Shown here piece after piece: positions 50,221 through 55,721 of a stretch of DNA of 64,000 nt (its first letter is position 1; every line of letters begins with the position of its first letter). The DNA comes from Noviherbaspirillum cavernae. Its GTDB lineage: Bacteria; Pseudomonadota; Gammaproteobacteria; Burkholderiales; Burkholderiaceae_D. Below the pieces are notes generated by a model. The model was not told the DNA's origin. It was given only the letters and a program-made list of their open reading frames with translations, and made no database searches. The stretch is taken from NCBI RefSeq assembly GCF_003590875.1, contig NZ_QYUN01000002.1, positions 2,976,001-3,040,000 of the forward strand, in the 5' to 3' direction. Both the position numbers and the translations under genes were made by a program.

Positions 50221-51660
50221 TCAGCGCTTGGGCGTGCCGCCCAACAATGCGGCGACCTTCGTTTTTTGCGGCTTGGTAGTGGCGGGTTTATTGGCCACAG
50301 CGGTGTCGCTTTCCGCATGTCCGGTGGATGGCTCCGGCTCATACGGCTTCAGGAACCACGGATCGACCTTTTCCTTGCGCGGGCCGTAGGCGCTGCGGCC
50401 GTACTGCGCACCCCGGCTCGGCGATGCGCCGGATTCGCTGTCGTCGCGGCGCGGACGCCGCTCGCTCGACCGCTGCGGCACGAAGCCGCTCAGTTGCAGG
50501 CGAGCGATATTGTGCTTGATCAGTTTTTCAATGTCGGCGAGCAGCCGCGTGTCCTTGTCGGTGTACAGCGAAATCGCGTCGCCCGATGCTCCTGCACGGC
50601 CGGTGCGGCCGATGCGATGCACATAGTCCTCGGCGTTGTACGGCAAGTCGAAATTGATGACACAAGGCAGTTCCGCGATATCCAGTCCGCGCGCCGCGAC
50701 GTCGGTGGCAACCAGCACTTCGATCGTGCCTTGCTTGAATGCCTCCAGCGCGGCCATGCGTTCGGCCTGCGTCTTGTCGCCGTGAATCGCGGAGGCCTTC
50801 ACACCTTCCTTCTCCAGATGACGCGACAGGCGCGATGCGCCGATCTTGGTGTTGGAGAAGACGATGACCTGCTTCAAGCCGCGATCGCGGATGATGTGCG
50901 CAATCGCATCGCGCTTGGCTTCCTCTTCGACTTTGTAAAGCACCTGCGTCACGTTGTCGGCGGTCGCATTGCTGCGCGCGACTTCGATCGTCACTGGATT
51001 CTGCAGGAAGCTGGCTGCCAGTTTCTTGATGTCAGGAGAAAAGGTCGCGGAGAACATCAGGTTCTGCCGCTGCTTCGGCAACAGATTGATGATGCGTTGC
51101 AAGTCCGGCAAGAAACCCATGTCCAGCATGCGATCGGCTTCATCCATGACGAGGATTTGCGTCTGTCCGAGATTCAGGGTTTTCTGCTGCACATGGTCGA
51201 GCAGCCGTCCCGGCGTGGCGATCACGATTTCCACCCCGGCACGCAAGGCCGCGGTCTGCGGTGCCATGTCGACCCCGCCGAAAACCACGGTCGCGCGCAA
51301 CGGCGTGTGTCGCGAGTACGCCTTGACGTTATCGGCAACCTGGTCGGCCAGTTCGCGCGTCGGCGTCAGGATCAGCGCACGCACCGGATGGCGCGCCGGC
51401 GATGCACTTGTGTTTGCATGCTCCAACAGCGATTGAATGATTGGCAACGAGAAACCGGCGGTCTTGCCTGTGCCCGTCTGCGCGGCACCCATGACATCAC
51501 GGCCTTGCAGCACGATGGGAATCGCTTCGGCCTGGATCGGTGTCGGATGCGTATAACCTTGATCGGCAAGCGCACGCAAAATATCGGGCGACAAGCCGAA
51601 GTCTTCGAAGCGGACAGCCGGCGCGGCATTTTGCATAGATGCTAACTGTGTATCGGACAT
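50221..51660 (-). CDS. rhlE: DEAD-box RNA helicase RhlE-like
   Basis: The start at 51660 (MSDTQLASMQNAAPAVRFED) gives 479 residues; upstream extension is non-homologous. Motifs: Q motif FEDFGLSPDILRALADQGYT, Walker A GAAQTGTGKT, DEAD in VMDEADRMLD, SAT in MFSATFS, and HRIGRTGR. The C-terminal 90 residues are basic and low-complexity, as usual for RhlE. It unwinds RNA in ribosome assembly or decay. Confidence 0.93.
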   Translation of the reverse strand: MSDTQLASMQNAAPAVRFEDFGLSPDILRALADQGYTHPTPIQAEAIPIVLQGRDVMGAAQTGTGKTAGFSLPIIQSLLEHANTSASPARHPVRALILTPTRELADQVADNVKAYSRHTPLRATVVFGGVDMAPQTAALRAGVEIVIATPGRLLDHVQQKTLNLGQTQILVMDEADRMLDMGFLPDLQRIINLLPKQRQNLMFSATFSPDIKKLAASFLQNPVTIEVARSNATADNVTQVLYKVEEEAKRDAIAHIIRDRGLKQVIVFSNTKIGASRLSRHLEKEGVKASAIHGDKTQAERMAALEAFKQGTIEVLVATDVAARGLDIAELPCVINFDLPYNAEDYVHRIGRTGRAGASGDAISLYTDKDTRLLADIEKLIKHNIARLQLSGFVPQRSSERRPRRDDSESGASPSRGAQYGRSAYGPRKEKVDPWFLKPYEPEPSTGHAESDTAVANKPATTKPQKTKVAALLGGTPKR

Positions 51661-52111
51661 GGTAATAATTACTCTGCCGCAGTAGGGTACGGCGCTGCTA
51701 GGGTTAGGGATGCGAATTGACCCCGGTGACGAAGCCGCCAGAAATTGACGCTCTTTCAATATGTAACCCTTCATTATACGCCTCACCCGATATGCCGGGG
51801 CACGGGCACGCGCATCCAACGCGGCGCATTCAATCTCGAAAGAGCACGACCCAGGTCTGACAATGCGCACGTCAAAAAATTGCGCGGCATTCCAGCATGA
51901 CAACGAACGTCGCATGCAATATCCCTCGGACTGCATTCGTGCAACCGAAGCGCACGAGAATGATATCTCTCAATAAGCATTCGATGCGGACGTAATCCAA
52001 TGGTTGAAGACGTCGTGACGGATGCATCACCGCATCCGTCACGGACCCGTGCATGCACTCGCGCATTGCATCGGAACCGCAACACGAAAAGAGCCCCCTC
52101 CGAATTCATCC
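51661..52111. other. Divergent region between rhlE and the GNAT-like cluster
   Basis: No gene is supported in these 451 bases. The region probably holds the rhlE promoter and 5' leader and the promoter of the first GNAT-like gene. The only clear structure is the inverted repeat at 52014-52043, listed separately. Confidence 0.5.
52014..52043. repeat. Perfect 12-bp inverted repeat upstream of GNAT-like cluster
   Basis: CGTGACGGATGC (52014-52025) and GCATCCGTCACG (52032-52043) are perfectly complementary across a 6-nt spacer. It ends 68 nt before the first gene's ATG. It could be an operator or a 5'-leader hairpin; no T-run follows. Confidence 0.6.
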
Positions 52112-53215
52112 ATGGACGCACAACAGATCAACATATCGGTGTACGAAAACCTGGTTCCTGACTTTGCGGAAGCAGAATTGGAAAACCTGTACGGAAATAT
52201 CTATTCATCGCTTGCACAACTGCGTGCGTGCGGGAATCTCGAAGGCATCAACACGTACGCGGTGCGGGATGGCGACAGACCTGTTTGCATTCTGCTGTTC
52301 CGCCGCCGCAAGACAAAACTGCAGGTTGTCAACGAAGGCATGGCGATCGGCGAAAAAGAAATGCGGCGCTTCGCCGAACACATGTTCGCGACATGCAGTT
52401 CGCTCAATCTCATTTCGTTTCATGCGATCGCAACGGACATGCGCCGGCTGCCGTTTCCGCATCAACGCTACAACTGCCTCGAAGACATCGTGCTGGCGCT
52501 GCCTCGCACGCCGCAGGCCTATCTGGCGAGCATGGGAAAGTCCACGCGCAGCTACATCAACCGTTACATGAACAAGATCAGGCGCGAACTGCCGACATTG
52601 CGTTTTCAAGTGCATGTGAACGAGGAAGTGAGCGAACAGCAGCTGCACGACGTCATTCAACTCAACAAGTACCGCATGGCAGAAAAGAACAAGGTGTGGT
52701 CGATCGACGGCAGCGAACGCATCGTCAGGCTCGCGAGATCGCGCGGACTGACCGGCATCATGGAGATCAATGGACGAGTCTGTGCCGGTGTTGTCAATTT
52801 CCGTGCCGGCGATAACTATTTTCTCGAACTGCTGTCGCACGATCCCGCATACAACGATTACCGACTCGGCACGCTGTGCTGTTACCTGACCATTTGCGAA
52901 TGCATCACGCGCGGCGGCAGGGAATACCATTTCCTGTGGGGGCAGAACGAATACAAATACCGCCTGCTGGGAGTGCAGCGCGATCTGGATCACGTCGCCA
53001 TCTATCGCTCGCGCGCGCATATGCTGCTGCATGCCGATACCGCACTGAACAATACCGTCAAGAGTGCCGTGCGTCGCACAAAGGTCTGGCGGCATCACGC
53101 ACAGCATGGCGGCAGGCACGATGCTGCTTCGCGTCTCGCACTCAATATTCTGAATCGGATCAGTACCATCAAACACCACGCCGATGGGCTGCTGGCAAGG
53201 CAGAAACAAGGATAA
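52112..53215 (+). CDS. GNAT/FemAB-like protein, tandem paralogue 1
   Basis: The 367-residue protein is soluble, without signal peptide. Its second half resembles the CelD/BioF2-like acetyltransferase fold (Pfam type Acetyltransf_6): NGRVCAGVVNFRAGDNYFLE at about 220-239, DYRLGTLCCYLTICECITRG at 249-268, and HFLWGQNEYKYRLLG at 273-287, matching the family's FLxGxxxYK hallmark. Family members are proposed to acylate cell-envelope glycans, but no substrate is known here. The blocks SSLAQL, FPHQRYNCLEDIVL, MGKSTRSYIN and GVQRDLDHVAIYRSR are shared with the two following genes. Start at 52112 was preferred over upstream in-frame starts because conserved sequence begins here. Confidence 0.85.
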   Translation: MDAQQINISVYENLVPDFAEAELENLYGNIYSSLAQLRACGNLEGINTYAVRDGDRPVCILLFRRRKTKLQVVNEGMAIGEKEMRRFAEHMFATCSSLNLISFHAIATDMRRLPFPHQRYNCLEDIVLALPRTPQAYLASMGKSTRSYINRYMNKIRRELPTLRFQVHVNEEVSEQQLHDVIQLNKYRMAEKNKVWSIDGSERIVRLARSRGLTGIMEINGRVCAGVVNFRAGDNYFLELLSHDPAYNDYRLGTLCCYLTICECITRGGREYHFLWGQNEYKYRLLGVQRDLDHVAIYRSRAHMLLHADTALNNTVKSAVRRTKVWRHHAQHGGRHDAASRLALNILNRISTIKHHADGLLARQKQG

Positions 53216-53225
53216 ACATACATAT

Positions 53226-53264
53226 ATGAACACCGGAGACTACCTGGATGAAAACCATATATGA
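53226..53264 (+). CDS. Possible 12-codon leader peptide
   Basis: An ATG at 53226 opens MNTGDYLDENHI and stops at TGA 53262-53264, which overlaps the ATG of paralogue 2 (53261-53263) in an ATGA arrangement. AAGGA lies 13 nt upstream, rather far. The phrase CATATATGAAC occurs at both this start and the next one, so a small duplication is another explanation. Confidence 0.3.
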   Translation: MNTGDYLDENHI

Positions 53265-54409
53265 ACTCGGACAGCGTCACCGTTTCGCTCTACGAACATT
53301 CCGTTCCATCCTTCATGGAAGCGGAGATGGATCGTCTGTATGAACACATCCATTCATCACTGGCGCAATTTCGCGTGTACGGCAATCTGGCCGATGCCAC
53401 CAGTACTTACGTTGTCCGGAAAGACGGCAAGGTCACAACCGCCTTGTTGTTTCAGATCAGCAAAACGCACGTGCGGGTCCTCAATGAGCAGATCAGCATT
53501 GACTCGCAGGAACTTGAGCGCTTTGCAAATCACATCTTCACCACATACAAATCGGTCCATCGCATCACCTTTCACGCGATCAGGGGGGAGACCGCAACGA
53601 TTTCCTTCCCTCATCAGCGCTTCAACTGCACGGAAGATATCGTCGTCAACTTGCCGGCTACGCGCGAAAAATACCTTGCCAGTCTCGGCAAGAATACGCG
53701 CAGAAACATCAAGCGCTATACCGATCGATTGATGCGCTGCTTCCCGAGCTTTCGCTACGAGTTTTACGAGCATGACGCGGTGAGTGCCGAGCAGTTGCAG
53801 ACGATTATCGGTTTCAACCGTGCACGGATGGCGGGAAAGCAGAAGGTCTCGACCATCGACGATGATGAGGCGGAGCGGATAGTGCAGCTCGCGCAGACCT
53901 GTGGCGTGGTCGGCATCGCGACCATCGATGGACGCATATGCGCCGGCGGCATCGGTTACCGTGCCGGCGAAAACTATTTTCTGAATGTGATCGCGCACGA
54001 TCCGGCATATGACGATTACTGGATAGGCGTGCTGTGCTCGTACCTGACGATCTGCGAATGCATTGCGCGCGGCTGCAAGGAATTCCATTTTCTCTGGGGC
54101 CGCTACGAATACAAGTTCGCACTGGGCGCTGTGCAACGCGATCTGGATCACCTCGTCATCTACCGATCCCGCGTGCAGCTTTTTCTGAACGGCGTCACCG
54201 CTTCGCGGATCGCCTGCACCGGCTATATCCGGATGGCGAAGTTCTGGATGCTGGATCAAGCGAGGCAACAGGGCAGCGACCGTTTTCCGGCACGCGCAGC
54301 TGTGTATGTCGTGACTCGCCTGCGCAGCCTGAAGCGCACGGCGTCGGGCATGCTTGCGCAGCGCAAGAAAACCATTTCCTTGCCGGAAGAACCCATCAAC
54401 GATATCTGA
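53261..54409 (+). CDS. GNAT/FemAB-like protein, tandem paralogue 2
   Basis: The 382-residue protein is clearly paralogous to its neighbours: SSLAQFRVYGNL near residue 32, RVLNEQI, FPHQRFNCTEDIVVNLP, YLASLGKNTRRNIKRY, ARMAGKQKVSTID, DGRICAGGIGYRAGENYFLN, and EFHFLWGRYEYKFALGAVQR. Its C-terminus is slightly longer (ending SLPEEPINDI). The gap to paralogue 1 is 45 nt and the start lacks a strong ribosome site, so coupling through the short upstream frame is possible. Predicted role: transfer of an acyl or aminoacyl group, substrate unknown. Confidence 0.85.
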   Translation: MNSDSVTVSLYEHSVPSFMEAEMDRLYEHIHSSLAQFRVYGNLADATSTYVVRKDGKVTTALLFQISKTHVRVLNEQISIDSQELERFANHIFTTYKSVHRITFHAIRGETATISFPHQRFNCTEDIVVNLPATREKYLASLGKNTRRNIKRYTDRLMRCFPSFRYEFYEHDAVSAEQLQTIIGFNRARMAGKQKVSTIDDDEAERIVQLAQTCGVVGIATIDGRICAGGIGYRAGENYFLNVIAHDPAYDDYWIGVLCSYLTICECIARGCKEFHFLWGRYEYKFALGAVQRDLDHLVIYRSRVQLFLNGVTASRIACTGYIRMAKFWMLDQARQQGSDRFPARAAVYVVTRLRSLKRTASGMLAQRKKTISLPEEPINDI

Positions 54410-54611
54410 CGGAAAGCCGTTTGAGCAGACACAATGGCCCGCGCATTAGCGCTGGAAGAATTCATGCTGGCGATGCAAGATGAATCGTTTTCCATTCCCG
54501 TCTCCCGCACTTGTCCTCACCCTTCCCCGATAACTCCGGCATATCAATTCGATTGCGGCTTCGGAAATTTTCCGCTGCCGCGTTATCCGTCAATTTTTCA
54601 CCGTTCAATTC

Positions 54612-55721
54612 ATGCAATCGCACAATATTGCCATTTCATTCCACGAGAATTCCGTTCCCTCTTTTTCCGGCCCCGAAATGGAACGGCTGTATGGGCACTT
54701 GTATTCCTCACTCGCACAATTCAGCGTGTACGGCAACCTCACGACAGACACCTGCACCTATGTCGCGCGGCAGCACGGGATTGTGATTGCGCTCCTTCTT
54801 CTGCGGATCGAAGGCGAACACGTGCGGGTTCTCAATGAACAGATCGATGTGGGCGCTGCGGAAATCGAGCGGTTTGCGCGCTACATGTTCTCGTCGCGAC
54901 CGTCACTGAAAACCATCCGCTTCCGCGCAATCCAGACCACGCTGCATCGCTTTTCATTCCCCTGCCAGCAGGTCAACATATCCGAAGACATCGTCGTGTC
55001 GCTGCCGGATACCAGCGACGATTACGCGGCACGCCTGGGCAAGGCCACGCGCAAGAACATCAAGCATCACCTCAGCAGATTGAGGCGCAGCTTTCCGACG
55101 CTGGTGCATCAGGTCCGTGCCAGGGAAGAGGCAAGCGAGCAGCATGTGCGCGAGATCGTCGCATTGAATCGCGCACGAATGGCTGGAAAGAACAAGGTGT
55201 CGTACATCGACGACGAGGAAGAGGAGCGCATCGTGCGCCTCGTGAAGCTGTGCGGCGTCGTCAGCGTGATGACGCTCGATGACCGGGTGTGTGCCGGCGT
55301 GATCTGCTATCAGGTCGGCTCGAACTATTTTTCACTGGTGAATGGGCATGCCACGGAATACGACGATTACCGTCTCGGCACGCTCTGCTTCCATCAGACG
55401 ATTTGCGCGTGCATCGAGCGCGGCGGCAAGGAGTTCCATTTCATGTGGGGCCAGTATCCGTACAAGTACATGCTGCTGGGCGTTCAGCGTGACCTCAACA
55501 ATCTCGTCATCTATCGCTCCCGCATGCAAGTGCTGCTCAACAGCCACACGGCCATGCGGATCGCATTCAGCGCGCAGATGCGCCGTGTGAAGTTCTGGCT
55601 GCTTCAGCAGGGCGAGAAGAAAAACGATCCGCGTCTGGCGGCGCGGATCATTCCTCACTGCTTGAGCATTCTGAAAAACCTGCGGCAGCACACTGCCGGG
55701 CTGCTGCCGCAGCGAAAATAA
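54612..55721 (+). CDS. GNAT/FemAB-like protein, tandem paralogue 3
   Basis: The 369-residue third copy carries the same blocks: SSLAQFSVYGNL, VRVLNEQID, NISEDIVVSLP, RLGKATRKNIKHH, ARMAGKNKVSYIDDEEEERI, DDRVCAGVICYQVGSNYFSL, DYRLGTLCFHQTICACIERG and EFHFMWGQYPYKYMLLGVQR. Active-site-region residues are retained, so all three copies look functional rather than decaying. It starts 202 bp after paralogue 2, in a gap without a recognised terminator. Substitutions cluster in the N-terminal half, suggesting different partners or acceptors. Confidence 0.85.
   Translation: MQSHNIAISFHENSVPSFSGPEMERLYGHLYSSLAQFSVYGNLTTDTCTYVARQHGIVIALLLLRIEGEHVRVLNEQIDVGAAEIERFARYMFSSRPSLKTIRFRAIQTTLHRFSFPCQQVNISEDIVVSLPDTSDDYAARLGKATRKNIKHHLSRLRRSFPTLVHQVRAREEASEQHVREIVALNRARMAGKNKVSYIDDEEEERIVRLVKLCGVVSVMTLDDRVCAGVICYQVGSNYFSLVNGHATEYDDYRLGTLCFHQTICACIERGGKEFHFMWGQYPYKYMLLGVQRDLNNLVIYRSRMQVLLNSHTAMRIAFSAQMRRVKFWLLQQGEKKNDPRLAARIIPHCLSILKNLRQHTAGLLPQRK

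Follow-up and report, generated by a model that had tools for sequence, protein, structure and literature searches.

In Caulobacter crescentus, HfsK and its two paralogs, CC2278 and CC1244, tune the cohesion and adhesion of the holdfast, and the triple mutant loses adhesion (PMC5362036). HfsK and its paralogs are tandem-GNAT proteins with FemX as the closest solved relative and a C-terminal extension that FemX lacks; their relatives cluster with exopolysaccharide (EPS) genes, action together with a polysaccharide deacetylase has been proposed, and the work that discovered HfsK did not settle what exactly it does or which donor it uses (PMC5362036). The three paralogs lie outside the core holdfast locus (PMC8449245), and a FemAB-related gene is listed beside a nodB-type deacetylase gene in a Burkholderiales EPS cluster (PMC3684757). 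Here, we describe three adjacent genes of Noviherbaspirillum cavernae that can be compared with these systems. They lie in a stretch of 64,000 nucleotides (the window; positions 2,976,001 to 3,040,000 of contig NZ_QYUN01000002.1), and we favour, with modest confidence, a reading in which their products are cytoplasmic FemX-fold transferases, similar to HfsK, that would acylate or aminoacylate an amine of EPS precursors. No paper on the family in Noviherbaspirillum or Oxalobacteraceae was among the matches listed in a search of open PMC papers.

The genes follow one another on the forward strand: copy 1 (52112..53215, 367 amino acids), copy 2 (53261..54409, 382 amino acids, beginning 45 nt past the end of copy 1) and copy 3 (54612..55721, 369 amino acids, beginning 202 nt past the end of copy 2). 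These coordinates and lengths agree with the original prediction, made from the sequence alone, of three adjacent genes. The frame of copy 1 opens at 52022 (397 amino acids), and the ATG at 52112, which gives 367 amino acids, aligns with M1 of copies 2 and 3, a residue with at least 90% conservation across 17 aligned rows. The copies are clearly diverged, as had been claimed, with pairwise identities of 47% (copies 1 and 2), 44% (copies 1 and 3) and 50% (copies 2 and 3). The shared motif blocks described earlier do occur in the same order, but not every block is present in every copy. GKxTRxxI and HFxWG are common to all three; SSLAQF reads SSLAQL and NRARMAGKxK reads NKYRMAEKNK in copy 1, RVCAGV and GVQRDL read RICAGG and AVQRDL in copy 2, and FPHQRxNxxEDIV reads FPCQQVNISEDIV in copy 3.

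The proposed membership of a GNAT/FemAB-like family is well supported. Copies 1, 2 and 3 match PF13480 (Acetyltransf_6) with 67.9, 61.8 and 63.4 bits (E 1e-16 to 1e-18), above the curated cut-off of 22 bits; the matched core of copy 2 spans 53690..54115 (+, residues 144-285). The predicted structures of copies 2 and 3 have the tandem GNAT fold of FemX (Weissella/Staphylococcus) and FemA, and copy 1 is a predicted tandem-GNAT transferase by its 44-47% identity to the other two. Taken together, the GNAT domain and the modelled fold make acyl or aminoacyl transfer, the chemistry originally suggested, the likely activity. At the sequence level the relationship to FemABX is distant: identity over the aligned structure is 10-12%, PF02388 (FemABX) was not among the matches of any of the copies when these were scanned at E <= 10 (matches above about 0.1 are mostly lost to the filters) and had none at E <= 0.001 across the whole host genome, and the window genes have no Gram-positive peptidoglycan context. 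FemAB_like (PF04339) matched copy 3 only, below its cut-off. Sequence searches of the PDB returned no real relative of the window proteins, and the streptothricin-type aminoacyl-tRNA-dependent peptide synthases Sba18 and Sbb17 (PDB 9wqw-9wqy), which act on the small molecule streptothrisamine, are 11-14% identical to them. NCBIfam held nothing for copies 1 and 3 and one match far under the cut-off for copy 2; the window proteins differ in this from the FemAB-related protein of PEP-CTERM EPS clusters, which we take to be that of model TIGR03019. The family itself extends far beyond chance, with 787 proteins matching at E <= 1e-3 (query included), under database names such as 'hypothetical protein' or 'GNAT family N-acetyltransferase'. 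The best viral fold match of copy 3 was a phage protein named FemAB family, which we take as fold likeness only; a phage or defence role was discarded for lack of any PHROG or PADLOC match at E <= 0.001.

The active site gives some indication of the donor. In the 92-row alignment used for the tree (where L010_3 and L051_8341 are the same gene of the same genome), with residues numbered as in copy 2, K285 is invariant (92/92), position 284 is tyrosine in 90/92 and an aromatic residue precedes the lysine in 90/92. This YK motif closes the PF13480 core of copy 2 and may, judging from the order of the motifs and from where the structural alignment ends, be the counterpart of the catalytic aromatic-Lys pair (F304-K305) of Weissella FemX. 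The canonical acyl-coenzyme A (CoA) GNAT P-loop, Q/R-x-x-G-x-G/A, precedes helix alpha3 (consensus from PMC4964394); at the expected place (residues 240-272) it was found in 0/92 rows, and elsewhere in 13/92 second domains (21/92 after shuffling) and 11/92 first domains. An invariant lysine in a FemX-like motif and the lacking P-loop lead us to lean slightly to aminoacyl-tRNA over acyl-CoA as the donor, although atypical P-loops exist in GNATs (PMC4964394), so that CoA could still be used. A bolder version, in which the proteins would use aminoacyl-tRNA, as FemX does, to put amino acids on EPS amines after NodB-type deacetylation, the trio being a set of three specificities, is tentative and on the whole rather unlikely. 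The C-terminal tails of copies 1, 2 and 3 comprise 67, 79 and 66 residues with net charges of +9, +9 and +11 (in copy 2 after residue 303, 54170..54406, +) and recall the extension of HfsK. Basic tails are a trait of the family, with a mean net charge of +9.0 (90 rows) versus +1.5 for the remaining protein. HfsK, for its part, binds c-di-GMP.

The three genes are three old subtypes together at one site by their placement in the tree, and not the tandem triplication that had been proposed. In a 'quick' tree of the 92 family rows, with several long branches, copy 2 pairs with L051_9887 of N. massiliense (SH-aLRT 99), copy 1 falls in a 10-row group that includes L051_8341 of the same species (SH-aLRT 86, weak), and the deep branch of copy 3 has no clear placement, its position being weak. 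Forcing the three copies into one clade costs 107 log-likelihood units (approximately unbiased test, p 9.6e-5); with the separate branches, this rejects local triplication. L051_8341 (-) and L051_9887 (+) adjoin each other, divergently, in N. massiliense, so the pairing of these two copies, 1 and 2, may be older than the host genome. Against these N. massiliense genes, nonsynonymous change lies well under synonymous change, and the ratios (about 0.17 for copy 2 and 0.25 for copy 1, with synonymous change near saturation) point to purifying selection on both; the estimate covers these two copies, copy 3 being without a close partner. This bears on the explanation that the genes are partly redundant paralogs performing the same reaction and kept for dosage or expression timing. 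The fold common to copies 2 and 3, the invariant residues common to all three and the adjacency of the genes are in its favour. Identities of 44-50%, separate branches and the purifying selection that acts on copies 1 and 2 point to distinct, kept roles and count against it, and HfsK and CC2278 did not cross-complement in Caulobacter (PMC5362036). We regard redundancy as improbable.

The family was found in 26 of 60 genomes searched (host included), namely in all 15 of the genus, with 2 to 7 copies each, and in 10 of 21 others of the same bacterial family; among 24 genomes from other families of the order there was one weak match (G050, E 1e-4). A search of 195 genomes of the bacterial family (host included) found the gene in 50 at E <= 1e-30, with 1 to 7 copies per carrier. 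Strong matches were confined, among the genomes of both sets, to the host's own bacterial family, a difference from HfsK. A short-pattern scan of named genomes gave 45 loci, of which three are titled Burkholderiales or Proteobacteria only; the other 42 belong to genera that we presume to be Oxalobacteraceae, or carry the name of that family. Two family genes are neighbours in 14 of the 50 carriers (divergent in two), and a trio occurs in the host only (hand count, contig ends disregarded). At seven loci (L044, L049, L050, L063, L064, L086 and L091) two old subtypes, each in its own clade, form a same-direction pair, and six of these pairs adjoin GT11.

These arrangements allow the original functional proposal to be weighed, namely a self-contained set, similar to FemX/FemA/FemB, whose members act sequentially on one acceptor and each add a residue. 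Three distinct subtypes lying adjacent in one direction with short gaps, the presence of the Fem fold and the adjacent pairs of old subtypes kept at the seven loci just named would all fit such a set. Pairs are limited, however, to 14/50 carriers, only the host has three, copy number varies from 1 to 7 per genome, and many members stand singly, either inside EPS clusters or as orphans. We consider a sequential set very improbable.

The evidence for EPS comes from the gene neighbourhoods of the family. Neighbouring genes were grouped into similarity clusters. Twelve of the clusters were labelled by eye, and for most of these (OafA and Fcl excepted) representatives, or the counterparts in the host genome, were compared with Pfam. 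The gene order Wza-Wzc-family gene-GMC oxidoreductase is frequent; GH16-family gene-GT4-NodB-OafA-WecG-GT4 also occurs, as do two family genes next to GT11. A flank of at least 8 kb was available for 80 of 90 members, and at least one labelled gene lay within 8 kb of 39 of these 80 (at least two for 24). Across eight control stretches (133 kb), tblastn with representatives of the labelled genes, a method that differs from the labelling itself, found no match. The family also co-occurs with the GMC oxidoreductase of these clusters. Counted by hand, with both searches at E <= 1e-30 and a strong GMC match defined as E < 1e-170 (G022, G087 and G182 being dropped for weaker GMC matches only), 32 of the 195 genomes had a strong match; the family gene was present in 31 of these 32 versus 19 of the 163 others (Fisher p = 9e-22 by genome, a value inflated by the shared ancestry of the genomes, and 3e-4 by genus). 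Outside the genus, the family match ends at most 300 nt upstream of GMC on the same strand in 16 of 20 GMC genomes; in the other four it lies at about 1.1 kb (G026, G090), elsewhere (G061) or is missing (G062).

Two side observations concern the partners in such clusters. The GMC-type FAD oxidoreductase is recurrent in the EPS cluster (host copy L135:12436-14082, that is, C2:1448436-1450082) and might oxidise a sugar of the EPS repeat. In two loci from other genomes of the phylum (L138, L139), a FemAB-like gene directly follows a gene that by eye resembles one for a polysaccharide deacetylase, on the same strand, perhaps another instance of a transferase-deacetylase pairing.

The host has an EPS cluster of its own, at C2:1.445-1.462 Mb (L135, L136) and about 1.58 Mb from the trio in a genome of 4.66 Mb. 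Its order is Wza, Wzc (L135:10045-12300), GMC, GalE, a deacetylase (L135:15359-16186), GH16 genes, GT4, a second deacetylase (L136:1566-2405), WecG and further GT4. A gap of 135 nt separates Wzc from GMC, and neither L135 nor L136 contains a family gene. The trio gave the only matches to a family query of the whole host genome, where PF13480 at large occurs in eight places. Two of these genes, at C2:3096807 and C2:3113630, lie 65-82 kb from the trio near a Wzz match (C2:3121398), a region that is perhaps a second EPS locus. Among the 12 GMC genomes of the genus (host included), a family gene lies 6-11 kb from GMC in four (G004, G005, G010, G013), no family gene lies within 600 kb of it in three (G003, G006, G014), and the GMC gene is near a contig end in four (G002, G007, G011, G012).

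Several points weigh against an EPS role for the window genes. Genomic coupling to EPS synthesis, as described for HfsK, was found for the family and not, by position, for these three genes: none of the 12 labelled cluster types occurs in the window, and Pfam on 10 of its larger open reading frames detected no EPS gene. They share this with the 41 of 80 members that have no labelled EPS gene within 8 kb. The neighbour labels were partly assigned by eye, the co-occurrence is confounded by common ancestry, the strong GMC marker is lacking in 19 genomes that have a family gene, and G062 carries the marker but no family gene. The trio is likened to HfsK by published description rather than by sequence, and the Caulobacter genes lie at separate places whereas the window genes are adjacent (PMC5362036). 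A Hirschia baltica mutant without hfsK and its two paralogs showed no change in holdfast or biofilm, and one of the paralogs was assigned to another polysaccharide pathway (PMC8449245). Nor does the chromosomal position help. The trio is flanked by rhlE (50221-51936, -) on one side and cydB-cydA-rpoD (-) on the other, as named by sequence reading; the closest cydB regions (three 16-kb stretches of G002, G005 and G013) contain cydA and cydB, and neither rhlE nor a family gene. Insertion at a conserved rhlE-cydB junction was ruled out on this ground, and a setting unseen in three relatives offers no conserved regulatory link.

L066, L068, L073 and L102 each have one family gene at a distance of about 4-5 kb from rpoD, with a clade and orientation different from those in the window. 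GC content of the copies is 0.55-0.57 versus 0.60 for the window, and that at third codon positions (0.68-0.75) lies inside the range of five neighbouring genes (0.67-0.80), which leaves no case for foreign origin by recent transfer. A search for promoter-like sites gave none (2.7 in shuffles), and the number of terminator-like sites was that expected by chance (5 versus 4.5).

MprF modifies phospholipid and FemX a peptidoglycan precursor. The trio could likewise act on another envelope target (lipid A/lipopolysaccharide, phospholipid, a peptidoglycan precursor or a protein), the EPS link of many of its relatives not being valid for these orphan copies. Set against this, the family as a whole follows the EPS cluster, the host has such a cluster with no family member in it, and no hydrophobic stretch in the proteins is strong enough for a transmembrane segment (maximum 19-residue mean 0.96 to 1.47), in contrast to full-length MprF. 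We judge another target unlikely, if worth keeping in mind. The two checks of the window described above showed no EPS gene; the original suggestion that the system is self-contained is not supported, given relatives in EPS clusters and a host cluster elsewhere. The original prediction had real genes and the right fold class, and was wrong on triplication and self-containment.

We return to the reading that the trio modifies EPS precursors. NodB/HfsH-type deacetylases of the EPS cluster would first bare amines on the EPS repeat, and the acceptor would probably be the amino sugar so deacetylated. At least one of the three proteins would then move an acyl or aminoacyl group onto these amines, either within the cytoplasm or on the face of the membrane, and the product would alter the charge and cohesion of the secreted polymer. 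The trio would act in trans, away from the EPS cluster, as the genome's only family members.

The analysis ties a family of non-descript database names to EPS modification in one bacterial family. The host, whose EPS cluster lacks a family gene and whose three distinct copies could be deleted at a single site, is a clean test case, and the trio makes the question of the role and donor of HfsK directly testable. If the aminoacyl-tRNA version were true, the secreted polysaccharide would carry an amino-acid pattern supplied by tRNA.

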